IMG/VR virus record: IMGVR_UViG_3300046804_000570
Location: 1 to 20,834 of that record
DNA length: 20,834 nt
Direction: 5' to 3' (one strand)
From: a virus
In this document: piece after piece, positions 3,885 to 19,817 of the stretch
Position numbering within the stretch: the stretch's first letter is position 1
Layout of the letters: every line of letters begins with the position of its first letter
Notes under the pieces: generated by a model
Seen by the model: only the letters and a program-made list of their open reading frames with translations
Database searches by the model: none
What the model was told of the DNA's origin: nothing
Position numbers and translations under genes: made by a program

Positions 3885-5681
3885 CTATCCTAAACTTGCA
3901 CTTTTAACGATATTTCTATCTAGTGCTTGTTGAGTAGTTACATCTTGAGATACAACATAAGCTTTAATTGGAGCCGACGATTGTACTGTTTTAGCAACTT
4001 GATTTGCAGTAGCAGGGCTAGTACCTACAACATTAAACATTGGAGCTCTTGGCGATTCAGCAGCAGGAGCAGATCCTCCACCTCCACCATTTGGAGTTTG
4101 TACATCGATAATGCTTTGTACGTTTTTCAAACCAGATGCAATAGCCAAACCTGCTGCAAGAGCTGCTCTAAATGGAGCATCAGGAGTAGGTATTGCTAAT
4201 TGAGAAGCGTAAGCTTGTTGAGCAGCCAAATAAGTTGAAATAGTAGTTGATGCAATAGCAGCAGCCTTTCCTTCATCAGTAGATTCTCCTAACAAATTTG
4301 ATGCTTGACTTAACATTTGAGCATAAGCGCCATATTGTTGATTTCTTGCAATTGCTTTTTGTTTTTCAATTTCTTCTTCTGCTGCAGCATTATCTTTTGC
4401 ATTCTGAAGACTTTTGTCCATTGCATTTTTAACTACTTCATTAGTATTTAATGCAGTTGACTTTACAATTTCAGCTTTACCGTTTTCAAAGTGTCTTTTA
4501 AGATCTTGTTCCTTTTCATAGTTTTCAAATTGGACTTCACCTTGTCTTTGAATCTCTTCATTAAAATCATCAGCCTCCTTTTGTCTTCTTGCTGCAGCTT
4601 TATCAGATCTTTCTTTCGCTAACGCATCTTGCTTTTCTTTATCTGCCTTTGCTCTTTCAGCATCTATCTTAGCAAGTTTACGACTAAGTTCTTTTGCTAG
4701 TGCAACTTGGTCTGCATTATCTTCTTTTAAAGCTTCATAGTATTCATTCTTAGCTTCTATCTTTTGCTTGGTATATTCATCAATTTGAGTACCATGTTCT
4801 TTTAAGAATTTAGCATTAGATGTGAGAGCTTTCTCTGCATCTTTCTGCATCTTTTCCATAGCTCTACTAGCCTCAGTTGTAACTCCAATGAAATCAGTAA
4901 ATGAATCATAAAGACCTCCTACAACCGTTCCTATTGAAGCCAAACCAGGAACTAACTTTAATGCAGCATTTTTTAACTTATCAAAGTTTGCAATCAATAA
5001 GCCAACACCAATTACTAAAGCACCAATACCTGTTGAAATTAAAGCAGCACGTAGTACCTTTAATCCAGTTGATGTTGCATTGTTAATAAAATTATATGCA
5101 GTTTGAAATATAGTCAAACTTTTAATTGCTGCACCTAATTGTCTTACGCTATTCGCTCCTTCTCGCATTGCTGCAAAACCTTGAGTAATAGCAAGTGCTG
5201 ATTGTACTTTTAGGATAGCTGCCTCTACACTTTTATTTTCTTTACCGAAGATAGCCATTGCTCCTTGAGTAGCAGCAAAAGCCCCTGAAACATATTCAAG
5301 TGAACCTCCTAATTTTTGAGTTAAAGTAGTTGCTGCAGAGTCAACAGCTAAATCTGTTTGAATTTGTGTCTTACGGTAATTACCTACAACAGTCAATAAT
5401 GCTTGGAACTCTTTACTTCCTTGTTTTCCAGCTAAAGATAGTTCGTATAGTCTATCTTCTGCTTCTCCCATTCTTGCAGTTAGTGGCTTAAGATCCCCAT
5501 ATACTTCTTCAAATGTTGCATCTAGGTTAATAGATGTGTTGTTAAGATCTTCAAATGATTGCTCTAAACCTTCTACAGCTTTTTTAGAGGTTTTAATTTG
5601 ACCAGTTAAATCTTTTAAATGGCTTTCTGTTTCTTGTACATTGTCTCTAATTACGAGATCTACTATTTTCTTTTCCGCCAT
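3885..5681 (-). CDS. Tail tape measure-like protein
   Basis: A 598-residue protein with an N-terminal coiled-coil region (about 1-110, including ESHLKDLTGQIKTSKKAVEGL), a long hydrophobic segment around residues 210-240 (ALISTGIGALVIGVGLLIANF), a charged Lys/Glu/Ala coiled coil (about 285-445) and an Ala-rich C-terminal part (IASTTISTYLAAQQAY, then AAGLAIASGLKNVQSIIDV) before a Gly-run. This helix-hydrophobic-coil layout and the C-terminal pattern are typical of siphophage tape measure proteins, which set tail length and help DNA enter the cell. At 598 residues it would imply a fairly short tail. The leader AAAGAGAAATAAA and the ATG at 5681 support the start. Confidence 0.8.
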   Translation of the reverse strand: MAEKKIVDLVIRDNVQETESHLKDLTGQIKTSKKAVEGLEQSFEDLNNTSINLDATFEEVYGDLKPLTARMGEAEDRLYELSLAGKQGSKEFQALLTVVGNYRKTQIQTDLAVDSAATTLTQKLGGSLEYVSGAFAATQGAMAIFGKENKSVEAAILKVQSALAITQGFAAMREGANSVRQLGAAIKSLTIFQTAYNFINNATSTGLKVLRAALISTGIGALVIGVGLLIANFDKLKNAALKLVPGLASIGTVVGGLYDSFTDFIGVTTEASRAMEKMQKDAEKALTSNAKFLKEHGTQIDEYTKQKIEAKNEYYEALKEDNADQVALAKELSRKLAKIDAERAKADKEKQDALAKERSDKAAARRQKEADDFNEEIQRQGEVQFENYEKEQDLKRHFENGKAEIVKSTALNTNEVVKNAMDKSLQNAKDNAAAEEEIEKQKAIARNQQYGAYAQMLSQASNLLGESTDEGKAAAIASTTISTYLAAQQAYASQLAIPTPDAPFRAALAAGLAIASGLKNVQSIIDVQTPNGGGGGSAPAAESPRAPMFNVVGTSPATANQVAKTVQSSAPIKAYVVSQDVTTQQALDRNIVKSASLG

Positions 5682-14029: not shown

Positions 14030-14329
14030 TTAGTCTTTTACAAATGTTCCGTTTTGCATTTTGCCAGTTCTTTTAGCAATTACTTGATATGCAGAGTTAA
14101 TACAATCCTCAATCTTATATCCTTTTAATGCTGCTAGATTAGTTAAAACTACTACACAATCTCCGATTGCATCAATGAATTCATCGTCATCGTTTTTAAG
14201 TATTGCTTTTGCTAATTCTCCTGCTTCTTCTTGAAGCTTAATGTACTGAGTCTTAGGATCTCCTGATGCATAAATACCTTTGTTGTTTGCCCAGCTTCTA
14301 ATGCTATTGAATTCTTCTGTTAATTCCAT
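14030..14329 (-). CDS. MazG-like nucleotide pyrophosphohydrolase
   Basis: A 99-residue all-alpha NTP pyrophosphatase. The metal-binding motif EExxE is Glu34-Glu35-Ala-Gly-Glu38 (LQEEAGELAKAI), followed by ExxD at Glu50-Asp53 (EFIDAIGD), with Asp57 close by. These enzymes hydrolyse (d)NTPs to (d)NMPs. The start codon shares a base with the stop of the hydroxymethylase gene (TAATG), so the two are translated together. T4 gp56 destroys dCTP and supplies dCMP to its hydroxymethylase; by analogy this protein could be a dCTPase or dUTPase feeding the neighbour and clearing the unmodified nucleotide. The substrate is inferred, not shown. Confidence 0.85.
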   Translation of the reverse strand: MELTEEFNSIRSWANNKGIYASGDPKTQYIKLQEEAGELAKAILKNDDDEFIDAIGDCVVVLTNLAALKGYKIEDCINSAYQVIAKRTGKMQNGTFVKD

Positions 14330-14976
14330 TATTTTTTTAAGTTAAAGTGTCTTTGATAAATATGCATGTTGCATACAAAATGAGTATAAATACCTAAATC
14401 TAATTTTAATTCTTTTGCTACAAGCATTTGTAGTTTGCTAAAACAATACTGATCATTGCAGAATCCATATACTAGATCATTGCTTCTCATCATTACTTGC
14501 ATGTTTAGTCTTTCATTAGTAATGTAAAAATTGATAGCATAAGTGCAAATAGTATATTTATGATATAAATTTATTTCTTTTCCATCATATAATGAAATAC
14601 TAGCTTTTCTAGTTACTGGATCTTCACGTAACATATCAATAACTCTATATAACTGGCCATTTCTAAACCATTGATATCCATAATTAGAATTGACATGCCC
14701 TCTTTCATCCATCATAGATTTCCAAATAGATGCTCTTTCTGATATTGCTTCTGCGTTAGGATTTCCTGATAAATACCATTCCCATTCGTAGTCAGCGTAA
14801 CTCTTACTCCATTTTCTATAAGTTGTTTCTATTAGATTAGAATCAGGTCTTTCTATTTCAATAAGAGTATTAAATATCTGCTTAGTACCATTAGAACAAT
14901 CTTGACCATAGTTCATGATATGATCATAAAGGTGCTCAAAAGCCTCTTGTGCGTTAAAACATTTAATTGCGTACAT
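14329..14976 (-). CDS. dCMP/dUMP hydroxymethylase (thymidylate synthase fold)
   Basis: A 215-residue thymidylate-synthase-fold enzyme that aligns by eye with T4 dCMP hydroxymethylase gp42: YEWEWY (63-68), HVNSNYGYQWF (94-104), LREDPVTRKASI (116-127), catalytic Cys144 in YTICTYAINF, MRSNDLVYGFCND (163-175) against T4 MRSNDVVFGFRND, and MHIYQRHF (204-211) against T4 LHVYSRHF. Asp175 occupies the place of Asn177 in thymidylate synthase. In T4 gp42 the matching Asp confers dCMP preference, so 5-hydroxymethyl-dCMP is the predicted product. The dUMP form is the alternative. The gene overlaps the PLP gene by 14 nt and is coupled to the MazG-like gene. It is shorter than typical thymidylate synthase (about 264 residues). 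Confidence 0.85.
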   Translation of the reverse strand: MYAIKCFNAQEAFEHLYDHIMNYGQDCSNGTKQIFNTLIEIERPDSNLIETTYRKWSKSYADYEWEWYLSGNPNAEAISERASIWKSMMDERGHVNSNYGYQWFRNGQLYRVIDMLREDPVTRKASISLYDGKEINLYHKYTICTYAINFYITNERLNMQVMMRSNDLVYGFCNDQYCFSKLQMLVAKELKLDLGIYTHFVCNMHIYQRHFNLKK

Positions 14977-15868
14977 ATCCTTCGAAGTCTTTTAAATCGT
15001 TCCAGTCTCTATAAGAATCAATAAGCTTTTTATCAATAGTAGGCTTCTCTGATTCGCCTGCTACATTAAAAAACCAATCCCCTAATTTACCAAATTTATT
15101 TAGGTATTCCCAACCTTTTGCATCATAACTATTTTCACAATCAAACTCAGATGGAATTATATCTGCTAGAGAATCAAATGGTTTGTGATATGAATAGAAC
15201 TTAGCATTTCCTAATTCTCCTTGCTGAATGTTTCTACTTACTGCAACAGCATGAAAGTTTGTATTTGGTAATGCAATCTGAAGTGTTCTAACTAATACGC
15301 CTGTTGATATAACTGTCCACATTGTCTCAGGCTTTTCTTTGTCTTTAAAGTAATCGTAGACAAGTCTTACCCCTCCTGCTACAACATAAGGATGGTTTAA
15401 TCCTAGTGGTACATAATAAGCGCCAACTGCTTTAGCATACTTCTTTGCAATAATGTTTGCATTAGGCATTGCCGCTACTCGCATAAACAAAGGCTTAGCT
15501 CCGTATTCAATACATAATGCTTGGTGATCACTTACTTCTTTTGATGCAGGCATTACTAATGTAAGATCTAAACCGTATTTTTTACATAGATAAGATAAAG
15601 AAATACCGGCAAATCCTCTTCTAGGTTGAACGTATACAATCTCTTTTACTCCTTGTTTGACTAATTGTTGTATTAAAAACTCTCCTGATCTTGCTTTGTA
15701 TCCAACAGGACAAGCTAATGATTCATCTATTACATTGAATCCTTTTACTTTATTAACCTTAAACTCTTCAAATGAAGACTTAAAGTCTTTGGTTAGATCT
15801 AAATAGTCATGCAAATACATGGTATTAAGATCGTTGTTTTGAATACCATTCTGCTTATTTATAAACAT
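14963..15868 (-). CDS. Fold-type-II PLP-dependent enzyme, DNA modification
   Basis: A 301-residue protein resembling the tryptophan synthase beta / cysteine synthase / ACC deaminase superfamily. The likely Schiff-base lysine is Lys58 in CPVGYKARSGEFL, matching the FKDRG-type motif of that fold. RRGFAGISLSYLCKKYGLDL (84-103) matches the substrate-loop helix, though the usual GN(H) is replaced by RRG. NHPYVVAGGVRLVYDY follows, and STGVLVRTLQ (188-197) matches the Gly-rich phosphate-binding turn. About 50 N-terminal residues differ from housekeeping relatives. It is locked between the transferase-like and hydroxymethylase genes by 14-nt overlaps, so a role in building or tailoring an amino-acid-derived base modification is likely. 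The reaction cannot be read from sequence. Confidence 0.7.
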   Translation of the reverse strand: MFINKQNGIQNNDLNTMYLHDYLDLTKDFKSSFEEFKVNKVKGFNVIDESLACPVGYKARSGEFLIQQLVKQGVKEIVYVQPRRGFAGISLSYLCKKYGLDLTLVMPASKEVSDHQALCIEYGAKPLFMRVAAMPNANIIAKKYAKAVGAYYVPLGLNHPYVVAGGVRLVYDYFKDKEKPETMWTVISTGVLVRTLQIALPNTNFHAVAVSRNIQQGELGNAKFYSYHKPFDSLADIIPSEFDCENSYDAKGWEYLNKFGKLGDWFFNVAGESEKPTIDKKLIDSYRDWNDLKDFEGYVRN

Positions 15869-17947: not shown

Positions 17948-18699
17948 TATTCACAAGGTTTAATTTCTCCGGTTTCTGTTAAGTAAGCTTTAAAGTCTGC
18001 TAAGTTTTCAATGAATTCACGATAGCATTGAGCTTTACAAGCAATAATTAATTCTTCTTTGTTGTTGTATTTACTAAGAAATGAACTATAAATCCTTCTC
18101 TTATCTTCAGCAGATGCTTCATAGATTCCAAATTGAACTATGTAATCATATAGAACATGTAAGCCACCAGCAATCCAATTCATTTTAATTGACTTCTCTT
18201 GACAACGCATCATCTCTTGAGCATACATGTTTGCAGAGTTTATTGCTGCCATTTTAAGATCTGCATCAGAAGGAACAGGAGTAGGCGGCTCTACTTCTTT
18301 TTGCTTTACAATCTTCATTACTTCTCTTTTTTGTTCAAGAAATTTCTTAATCCATTGAACAAAATTACTAGGAGAAAAGAATACAACGTTGTTTCCTTCA
18401 GAATTGTAGTCGCCATTTAAACCTCGTTTTAAAGCGAGATTTATCTCGTCTACTGATAACTGTTCAAATGATCTAATATCTTCCATCAGAACTAACACAA
18501 GAGCCCTGTGCTCGTCGTCAGGCAGTGCTTTAGATCCTAACTTTATCTTTGCAAGTGAAATTGATCGCATTGCAAGATTCATTAAGTCTTGATCAGTTAG
18601 GCTAGATACCTTCAAAGAAGTTTGAGATTCTACGATTTCTTTTTCGTATCTAGATAAACCAGGAATTGAATTATTTGAAAGGGTTAATGAAAGTTCCAT
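17947..18699 (-). CDS. Putative replication accessory protein (250 residues), unknown
   Basis: A 250-residue, mostly helical protein starting MELSLTLSNNSIPGLSRYEK. The middle includes SVDEINLALKRGLNGDY and FFSPSNFVQWIKKFLEQ (about 99-128), followed by a charged Pro-rich linker (EVEPPTPVPSDAD) and a second helical domain. I see no P-loop and no nuclease motif. It follows the DUF4373 gene with a 29-nt overlap, the place where replication partners such as helicase loaders often sit, and the two-domain layout with a linker would fit a loader or primosome factor. That role is inferred from context only. Confidence 0.55.
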   Translation of the reverse strand: MELSLTLSNNSIPGLSRYEKEIVESQTSLKVSSLTDQDLMNLAMRSISLAKIKLGSKALPDDEHRALVLVLMEDIRSFEQLSVDEINLALKRGLNGDYNSEGNNVVFFSPSNFVQWIKKFLEQKREVMKIVKQKEVEPPTPVPSDADLKMAAINSANMYAQEMMRCQEKSIKMNWIAGGLHVLYDYIVQFGIYEASAEDKRRIYSSFLSKYNNKEELIIACKAQCYREFIENLADFKAYLTETGEIKPCE

Positions 18700-19432
18700 T
18701 TTTTATTTCTTCTGATAGTTGGTCGTGAACATTTTTCAAACTTATTAAATTCTGCTGAAATTTGCCAATTTCTTTTTTAGGCTCAACAGATCCTTTAGGA
18801 GAAAATAATCCTTGATAGTTATTAGAAATCGAATTATTAATCGCTAACTCAAGTTCTAGATCAGATTTAAGTTCCCAATCTTTTATTAGTTGCTTTTTAC
18901 CAGATTCAGTATAAGAAGATCTTTTTTCTTTTTTATAAGTAAACCATCTTTCAAACAAGAGTTCGCGTTCTGAAAGAACGTATTCTATATCTTCTTTTAT
19001 ATTATTTACTTTAATTTCATTTACTTTACTTTTCTTTTCTTTTATTTGTTGAACGGTCGTTGAACGGTCGTTAAGCATCCGTTTGGCGGCCGATGCTTTT
19101 CCTGCCAACATTCTCTGTTCTTTCATCTTAAAATATGGCTCTAAATAAACTAACATCTTAGGAGAGAAGAATTTGTTTTCTTGATCAAAATCAAACAATT
19201 CGTAATTGCAGATGACTGTTTTAATCTTAGCGTCTGATGTTCCAAACTCTTCTGCTAGTAGATCACAATCCTCTAATGGATACATCATGTCATGTTGATC
19301 TCTAAGCGTTTCCAAAAGCATAAAATATATGCCGTAACCTTCAATTCCAAGTTCTTTCCTTAGCCTTCTGATCTTACGATCATGACGTGCATTAGAAAAG
19401 TGCGGAAAGTAAAATGCCTCTTTTTGCATCAT
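18671..19432 (-). CDS. DUF4373/Lin1244-type replication protein
   Basis: I place the start at ATG 19432 (MMQKEAFYFPHFSNARHDRK; the second ATG at 19429 is equally possible) because the family normally begins about there. The longer frame, to 19501, runs through a terminator-like hairpin. Residues 6-100 form the Lin1244/Lin1753-type winged-helix domain (RKIRRLRKELGIEGYGIYFM). It is followed by a Lys-rich linker (NDRSTTVQQIKEKKSKVNEI) and a C-terminal helical domain from about residue 150 that resembles DnaD/DnaB-loader-like C-termini. Such proteins are thought to start phage replication. The linker coding region contains an 11-bp tandem repeat that could be the origin. Expression is probably set by the promoter and structured leader just upstream. 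Confidence 0.8.
   Translation of the reverse strand: MMQKEAFYFPHFSNARHDRKIRRLRKELGIEGYGIYFMLLETLRDQHDMMYPLEDCDLLAEEFGTSDAKIKTVICNYELFDFDQENKFFSPKMLVYLEPYFKMKEQRMLAGKASAAKRMLNDRSTTVQQIKEKKSKVNEIKVNNIKEDIEYVLSERELLFERWFTYKKEKRSSYTESGKKQLIKDWELKSDLELELAINNSISNNYQGLFSPKGSVEPKKEIGKFQQNLISLKNVHDQLSEEIKNGTFINPFK
19048..19069. repeat. Two tandem 11-bp repeats, candidate origin iterons
   Basis: GTTGAACGGTC occurs twice in perfect tandem and is followed by a partial third copy (GTTAAGC). Each unit includes AACG-GT-CGTT with inverted 4-bp arms. The unit length is not a multiple of three, so the repeat is not explained by a repeated peptide. It lies in the linker region of the replication gene, where some phages (lambda, for example) keep their origin. 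Confidence 0.45.
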
Positions 19433-19437
19433 ATAAA

Positions 19438-19490
19438 ATAAAAAAAGCCAGACATTGCGTAGGAGTGCAAGCTGGCTTTGGTTTTTAACC
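19438..19490 (-). terminator. Terminator-like hairpin at the end of the leader RNA
   Basis: On the minus strand an 8-bp stem AAAGCCAG/CTGGCTTT (19479-19472 with 19451-19444) is extended by an inner TTGC/GCAA stem and closes on the 8-nt loop ACTCCTAC. A TTTTTTTATTTT tract follows at once, the form of an intrinsic terminator. A small GGTT/AACC hairpin stands just before it (19490-19480). The replication gene start lies only about 5 nt after the U-tract, so the hairpin acts either as an attenuator or as the end of a short RNA. Confidence 0.75.
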
Positions 19491-19529
19491 CTATTAATCA
19501 CCTGATAGCTCCTACCCTGTCAGTTGATT
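19438..19529 (-). ncRNA. Structured leader/short RNA with kissing hairpin loops
   Basis: A transcript from the promoter at 19534-19564 would begin near 19528 and fold a first hairpin (stem arms 19523-19517 and 19508-19502, CTGA-C-AG against CT-A-TCAG with one A/C mismatch) exposing the loop GGTAGGAG. The terminator hairpin follows with loop ACTCCTAC. Seven bases, GTAGGAG and CTCCTAC, are perfectly complementary and lie wholly within the two loops. The match ends exactly at the stems, which favours a loop-loop (kissing) contact over an antiterminator helix. About 90 nt in all. It could be a riboregulatory leader of the replication gene or a separate phage small RNA. I do not recognise it as a known riboswitch class. 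5' and 3' ends are estimated. Confidence 0.55.
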
Positions 19530-19533
19530 TATG

Positions 19534-19564
19534 CAAATATAATAATATTATCTTAATTTGCAAA
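19534..19564 (-). promoter_or_regulatory. Bacteroidota-type promoter for the replication operon
   Basis: On the minus strand TTTG (19564-19561) is followed after 19 bp by TATATTTG (19541-19534). This is an exact match to the Bacteroidota primary-sigma consensus TTTG, 19-21 bp, TAnnTTTG. The -33 element lies in the last codons of the upstream gene. Transcription should start 5-8 nt downstream, near 19528, just before the first hairpin of the leader RNA. Confidence 0.75.
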
Positions 19565-19817
19565 CCCGCTTTTCAAATATGCCAGCGTAATGTGGGAAAT
19601 CTTCTTCGAATTTACGAGCAAAGTCGGCAGTATAGTTGTTGTTGACCTTGAACTCGTCGTTTTTCTGAATCATTGATTCCCATCTAATCCTTTCAAATAT
19701 TGCTCTAGAGCCAATTCTATTGTGGCCAATTGAGATCAATTCAAAAGCATAGTGAACAAATGCTTTGTAAATACTAGGATTTTTTTCTAGGTACTCTTGG
19801 AATGACAGATTTTTCAT
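19548..19817 (-). CDS. Small early phage protein (89 residues), unknown
   Basis: An 89-residue protein starting MKNLSFQEYLEKNPSIYKAF. Landmarks are FVHYAFELISIGHNRIGSRAIFERIRW and FKVNNNYTADFARKFEEDFP. The pattern of a helical start, a Gly-x-x-x-x-(G/S)-x-x-x-I-x-x-x-IRW segment and the NNNYTA(D/Y)-x-AR-x-F motif is one I recognise in Bacteroidota phages and prophages near replication genes, where it looks like a small winged-helix DNA-binding protein. The function is unknown. Its final codons contain the -33 box of the downstream promoter. Confidence 0.65.
   Translation of the reverse strand: MKNLSFQEYLEKNPSIYKAFVHYAFELISIGHNRIGSRAIFERIRWESMIQKNDEFKVNNNYTADFARKFEEDFPHYAGIFEKRVCKLR

Follow-up and report, generated by a model that had tools for sequence, protein, structure and literature searches.

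A short leader RNA with two hairpins, whose seven-base loops are exactly complementary to each other, precedes the replication initiator gene of a phage, and the kissing fold of this RNA is well supported by its sequence and by that of its relatives. The leader is located on the minus strand (19529-19440) of a 20.8-kb virus record of IMG/VR (IMGVR_UViG_3300046804_000570), the whole of which (20,834 nucleotides) is referred to as the window. As far as sequence comparison can tell, it belongs to a large class that has not been described, and the design, with ever-changing and always-matching loops, suggests a widespread and so far undescribed control of phage DNA replication by RNA. On balance, the leader RNA would probably work as a transcription attenuator of the replication operon, set by contact between the two loops. 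Phage replication is known to be controlled by RNA in few cases, and in phages of Bacteroidota in almost none; here, at least three sequence-unrelated leaders with the same layout were found at replication operons of phages, in well above 100 contigs of viruses and, as it appears, also in phages in culture.

The nearest named phages to the window terminase are the Nonlabens phages P12024S/L (58%), hence the host is most likely a member of the Bacteroidota. The leader lies between a small gene that ends at 19548 and the replication initiator gene that starts at 19432; a homologue of the small gene was found before many leaders of the same type (type 1 below). Elsewhere in the window, a thymidylate synthase-like gene (14329-14976) adjoins a gene for a PLP-dependent enzyme of the PALP fold (14963-15868). 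The features of the leader and its neighbours are as follows:

19548-19817, minus strand: upstream co-directional small gene of unknown function (match to phrog_13625)
19534-19564, minus strand: promoter of the Bacteroidetes -33/-7 type, with TTTG at 19564-19561, a 19-nt spacer and TATATTTG at 19541-19534 (sequence)
19496-19529, minus strand: hairpin 1, with a 5-bp lower stem, a purine.G mismatch, a 7-bp upper stem and the 8-nt loop GGTAGGAG (folding and covariation)
19509-19515, minus strand: kissing loop 1, GTAGGAG, the exact complement of 19459-19465
19480-19490, minus strand: mini-hairpin GGTT/AACC in the linker (folding)
19444-19479, minus strand: terminator hairpin with outer stem AGCCAG/CTGGCT and loop ACTCCTAC at 19466-19459 (folding; -14.6 kcal/mol alone)
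19459-19465, minus strand: kissing loop 2, CTCCTAC, within the terminator loop, the exact complement of 19509-19515
19440-19446, minus strand: U-tract of the intrinsic terminator, 7 U (sequence)
18671-19432, minus strand: controlled gene, a replication initiator with a Lin1244_N N-terminus (PF14297, E=2.6e-14; phrog_2562 replication initiation protein, E=3.5e-18)

The predicted transcript, of about 90 nt, would begin at the base of hairpin 1. The first-pass annotation had described a hairpin, a GGTT/AACC mini-hairpin and a terminator-like hairpin in series, and this order is confirmed by sequence and folding; the first hairpin is present as described but is longer, since a lower stem extends it. 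In the window its purine.G mismatch is A.G, one C.A mismatch lies within the upper stem, and the loop occupies 19516-19509. The minimum free energy of the leader is -26.4 kcal/mol (z = -2.4), and an equally good value was reached by 3 of 200 shuffles. The pairing of GTAGGAG (19515-19509) with CTCCTAC (19465-19459) comprises exactly 7 bp and is the sole pair of its kind at that spacing in the window, with 0.00 expected from 100 shuffles of the window, which bears out the earlier statement that the match is confined to the loops and improbable by chance. A search for trans targets in the window gave, as the only second copy of a loop sequence, one extra CTCCTAC at 4916. The end of the U-tract is separated from the first ATG (19432) by 7 nt, rather than by the five reported at first, and from the ATG common to the relatives by 10 nt.

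Relatives of the initiator protein were found to carry the same leader with a different yet matching loop pair, GTGAGAG/CTCTCAC. In this family (type 1), the loop 1 variants GTGAGAG, GTCGGAG, GTCAGAG and GTGGTAG each occur with the matching partner. A pattern scan with two loop bases left free on both sides gave at least 119 stretches in viral contigs, and among the matches listed the free bases were complementary in 64/64 distinct elements fetched (AG 32, GA 25, CG 5 and CA 2). When applied to 84,980 genomes of bacteria and archaea as a chance control, the same pattern gave 21 matches, none of them complementary (0/21). A second scan specified only the mini-hairpin and the terminator and left both loops fully free; an exact 7-nt loop match was present in 54/54 distinct elements, which included GTGGTAG as a fifth loop type. 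The viral contigs are metagenomic and interrelated, so that all counts given here are of distinct sequences and not of independent events.

An alignment of 43 type 1 relatives had 99.2% of its cells paired, with changes on both sides in 17 of 28 pairs, and its covariation score was 0.428, compared with 0.139 for shuffled alignments and at most 0.085 for slid structures. The rows of this alignment were chosen for exact loop complementarity; therefore, the evidence for the kissing helix comes from the unbiased scans, while the alignment stands for hairpin 1. Both sides had changed at 11/12 pairs of hairpin 1, whose pairs were formed in 95.8% of cases versus 74.5% with the 3' sides shuffled, and the purine.G mismatch was kept in 38/44. 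Covariation was also observed at 3/3 pairs of the terminator inner stem. By eye, the linker mini-hairpin was GGTA/TACC in L097 and L141, and in L102 and L122 it had other sequences that still formed a hairpin. Type 1 hairpin 1 contained 74 G.U versus 8 A.C pairs, which indicates an RNA on the gene-sense strand. An antisense RNA on the plus strand, suggested at the outset, was rejected on this bias and because antisense promoter-like motifs were not clearly enriched (11/69 and 2/28, against a background of 6-8%).

Other leaders were sought by a route blind to the RNA, in which relatives of another initiator were collected and the sequence upstream was read. This yielded leaders that have no sequence similarity to type 1 and follow the same plan. 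Type 2 (L313-L319, L320-L357) consists of a stem GCGTT/AACGC around the loop ATNNNAC, followed by a terminator with the loop GTNNNAT; when NNN was left free in both loops, these were complementary in 13/13 distinct elements with two alleles, ATGGTAC and ATGCAAC. These leaders precede the same initiator families as type 1. Type 5 (L263-L310, L359-L406) has a 7-nt loop between GGAAT and ATTCC and a further 7-nt loop between GCA and TGC in the terminator, followed by GGGNTTTTT. All seven bases were free on both sides, and a 7/7 match was present in 28/28 elements, with eight loop alleles. Relatives that retain the hairpins without the loop complementarity never occurred in the unbiased sets (64/64, 54/54, 13/13 and 28/28); two-hairpin RNAs with loops kept complementary by compensatory change were thus found in sets not selected for complementarity.

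A generic scan for kissing terminators in all fetched loci gave 115 distinct hits versus 5 in locally shuffled sequence, a ratio that applies to loci enriched for such leaders and is not a genome-wide rate. A looser version gave 26 hits in 1 Mb of Bacteroidia chromosome, scattered in coding sequence, and single generic hits therefore count for little and the cases from cultured phages weigh less. With this weight, the cultured phages Tenacibaculum JQ, Flavobacterium 11b and Polaribacter Freya and Danklef appear to carry further versions. A probable leader with a 9-10-nt loop-loop match (AGCATCCTAC) lies upstream of the replisome-organiser operon of Tenacibaculum phage JQ (L407:35950-36060), which is a convenient bench model. 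Probable kissing terminators (CGGGCAGG; GGTGGAA), found by the generic scan only, are located in Flavobacterium phage 11b (L413:33630-33740) and in Polaribacter phages (L408:28560-28660, L409:36640-36740); those of Danklef_1 and Freya_1 are ahead of a regulator and, in Freya_1, also of a DNA replication protein. Riemerella phage CRP6 (L410, minus strand, about 31.3-31.5 kb) has a probable leader with 12 complementary nucleotides and a TATATTTG promoter, ahead of genes leading to an antirepressor, with a similar string (TTCAAACAAGA) at the next ATG.

Single cases were noted as well. At about 2005-2090 of L284, a further kissing terminator immediately precedes an initiator of the MAIFRKI type: GTAGCAG is enclosed by AACCAA and TTGGTT, and the terminator loop contains CTGCTAC. 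The contig L038 contains a type 1 leader and, at 1480-1560, a second kissing terminator that is unrelated to it (GTTGCAGC/GCTGCAAC) and precedes a gene of the HNH type. An apparent instance of two leaders in one phage (59-kb IMGVR_UViG_3300027969_000114; L007, L202) was set aside, as the spacing and the matching contigs of about 29.6 kb suggest two joined phages, each with a leader of its own.

The gene that follows a type 1 leader always has the same direction as the leader, and its start codon lies 9-15 nt past TGGCTTTTT in 103/108; in types 2 and 5 the start codon lies 0-6 nt past the U-tract. The promoter motif by itself is not significant in the AT-rich window (27 matches versus 31.6 expected). 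The host-type promoter read from the window at first is upheld by its placing: TAnnTT[TC]G precedes hairpin 1 by a short, fixed distance in 45/70 type 1, 13/13 type 2 and 28/28 type 5 elements, against a background of about 2%. Between the U-tract and +40, TAnnTTTG was absent from every type 1 and type 5 element. A leader layout was accordingly found, with its own promoter, an intrinsic terminator and then a co-directional gene. Most genes behind types 1 and 2 encode a replication initiator or a replisome organiser, with swapped N-terminal domains; downstream of type 1 these are Lin1244_N, phrog_6251/1701 types and HTH_36, and the C-terminal part is often shared. Small ORFs or HNH genes are present now and then between a type 1 leader and the initiator. 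In L003 and L005, an ORF of about 55 amino acids that is membrane-like lies between the leader and the replication gene, and the spacing from U-tract to ATG is kept. Type 5 leaders, positioned further up in operons of this kind, are often followed by other small genes of the operon in place of the initiator.

There is no promoter motif between the U-tract and the gene and the upstream gene is co-directional, so that transcription reading through from it must cross the leader too; control of termination and readthrough, which the first-pass annotation had proposed for the contact, would therefore be the most economical function. In such an attenuator, a polymerase that starts at the leader promoter, or reads through from the upstream gene, would make hairpin 1 and then the terminator, and the pairing of the loops at that moment would set the share of polymerases that stop, whether toward stopping or toward readthrough. 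Since the terminator hairpin is beside the start codon, it could also affect translation of the readthrough mRNA. What would be set in the end is how much replication initiator is made and, with it, when or to what extent the phage DNA replicates. Pseudoknot-free folding of the nascent RNA without the 3' arm of the terminator gave the loop 1:loop 2 duplex a value of 0.60 and the upper stem of hairpin 1 a value of 0.26, indicating that, until the terminator has closed, hairpin 1 can face competition from the loop complementarity and that the order of folding matters. The 5' arm of the terminator was paired in the nascent RNA with a mean of 0.52 and up to 0.94, and this folding gave no clear conserved antiterminator. 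The 7-bp duplexes of 11 loop alleles are similar in strength, about -7 to -11 kcal/mol. Several points count against the attenuator. The terminator hairpin is stable alone and may therefore stop the polymerase whether or not the loops make contact; leaders of type 5 often precede other small operon genes; and with linkers of 15-20 nt and rods of about 25-30 bp, full kissing in cis is tight, as estimated from general helix dimensions.

The same architecture could act between molecules. The terminated leader would then be a self-complementary control RNA that accumulates with phage copy number and pairs with nascent leaders that share its loop type, so as to damp replication or keep related phages out, with loop types as specificity groups in the manner of ColE1 RNA I/II or P4 CI RNA. 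At least 11 loop sequences with similar duplex energy and few long cross-matches are known from types 1 and 5, several loop types occur within one metagenome (3300020043), and near-identical leader bodies are found with loops and downstream genes that differ. In type 5, the loops change no more slowly than the remainder of the leader, and 54% of the pairs at 90-95% masked identity have unlike loops; free drift of the structure would fit this, as would selection for distinct specificities. However, both complementary loops are in one molecule, and pairing in cis should win at low RNA concentration; moreover, type 1 loops evolve no faster than the rest of the leader, and the search pattern fixes part of the leader and thereby inflates the contrast between loop and body. 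Action in trans is accordingly regarded as possible though rather improbable, and the same doubt applies to its extension to a general, sequence-independent phage control in which variable kissing loops are specificity groups and the terminator is set in trans between sister or competing genomes. If it were true, the leaders would regulate replication and perhaps superinfection. It is unlikely that the RNA is a free-standing small RNA gene, with a kissing fold that serves compactness or stability only, a target elsewhere and an incidental downstream gene. The RNA is bracketed exactly by promoter and terminator, the gene behind it is not constant and small ORFs may lie in between, as a free-standing RNA gene would allow; yet the start codon stands a near-constant few nucleotides past the U-tract in three unrelated types, the variable loops leave no conserved exposed sequence for target binding, and the operon that follows lacks a further promoter motif nearby.

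A ligand-sensing riboswitch or a protein-sensed leader, the former raised in the first-pass annotation, would account for a leader with a terminator before a gene and for the conserved purine.G mismatch of hairpin 1, but is very improbable: the leader matched none of 4227 Rfam families at gathering level, and none meaningfully below it, and types 2 and 5 have no primary sequence in common with type 1. No conserved unpaired aptamer core was found across types 1, 2 and 5; the layout and the complementarity are all that these three sequence-unrelated types have in common. Inverted repeats of a replication origin, bound as DNA by the initiator, would explain why the element adjoins initiator genes, and can be given hardly any credence, as the stems favour G.U over A.C (74:8), the U-tract and promoter are in register, the loop sequences vary where a binding site should not, and loop-loop pairing is meaningless in duplex DNA. 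The immunity or lysogeny switch considered at first is disfavoured by searches for bacterial copies: all of the 21 pattern matches in the 84,980 genomes were chance matches, and a covariance model found 0/395 in Bacteroidia, a search for which a positive-control genome does not exist. Against named phages, BLAST of the window leader returned promoter-like or chance matches only, and BLAST of two other type 1 variants and one type 2 leader returned none. No description of such leaders was found in the literature searched, which left out most subscription journals.

The transcription attenuator favoured here offers a directly testable code, because the loops vary freely if they match: a swap of one loop is expected to cause failure and a swap of both to bring a return of function. 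The leaders also offer RNA engineering a natural supply of kissing-loop terminators in orthogonal sets.

Among known systems, Flavo-1, Bacteroidales-1 and other Bacteroidetes RNAs of Rfam are likewise structured (PMC2864571), and the window leader differs from them in matching no Rfam family. In the immunity of satellite phage P4, CI RNA acts with seqA and seqC in the leader, and control is by premature transcription termination (PMC4825925, citing Sabbattini 1995 and Briani 2000). There, as here, complementary segments are present in one untranslated leader before phage replication genes; unlike here, the P4 RNA is a processed antisense RNA in the lysogen, and the sequences are unrelated. In the leaders described here, the intrinsic terminator carries one of the two hairpin loops and there is no sign of lysogeny, with no genuine copy pointing to a P4-like prophage state in the bacterial genomes searched. 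The attenuators of pT181/pIP501-type plasmids are also situated before a replication initiator gene and derive specificity from kissing contacts of hairpin loops (PMC4878617), with attenuation being a prediction in the present case. Those plasmids depend on an antisense RNA made from the opposing strand, whereas here a single sense RNA contains both complementary loops, and an opposing promoter of the pT181 type was not clearly enriched (the 11/69 and 2/28 given above). In ColE1, hairpin loops of about 7 nt that are fully complementary control replication through RNA I and RNA II. The ColE1 loops are on two antisense RNAs, of which RNA II is a primer, whereas here both loops belong to the leader of one protein-coding operon.
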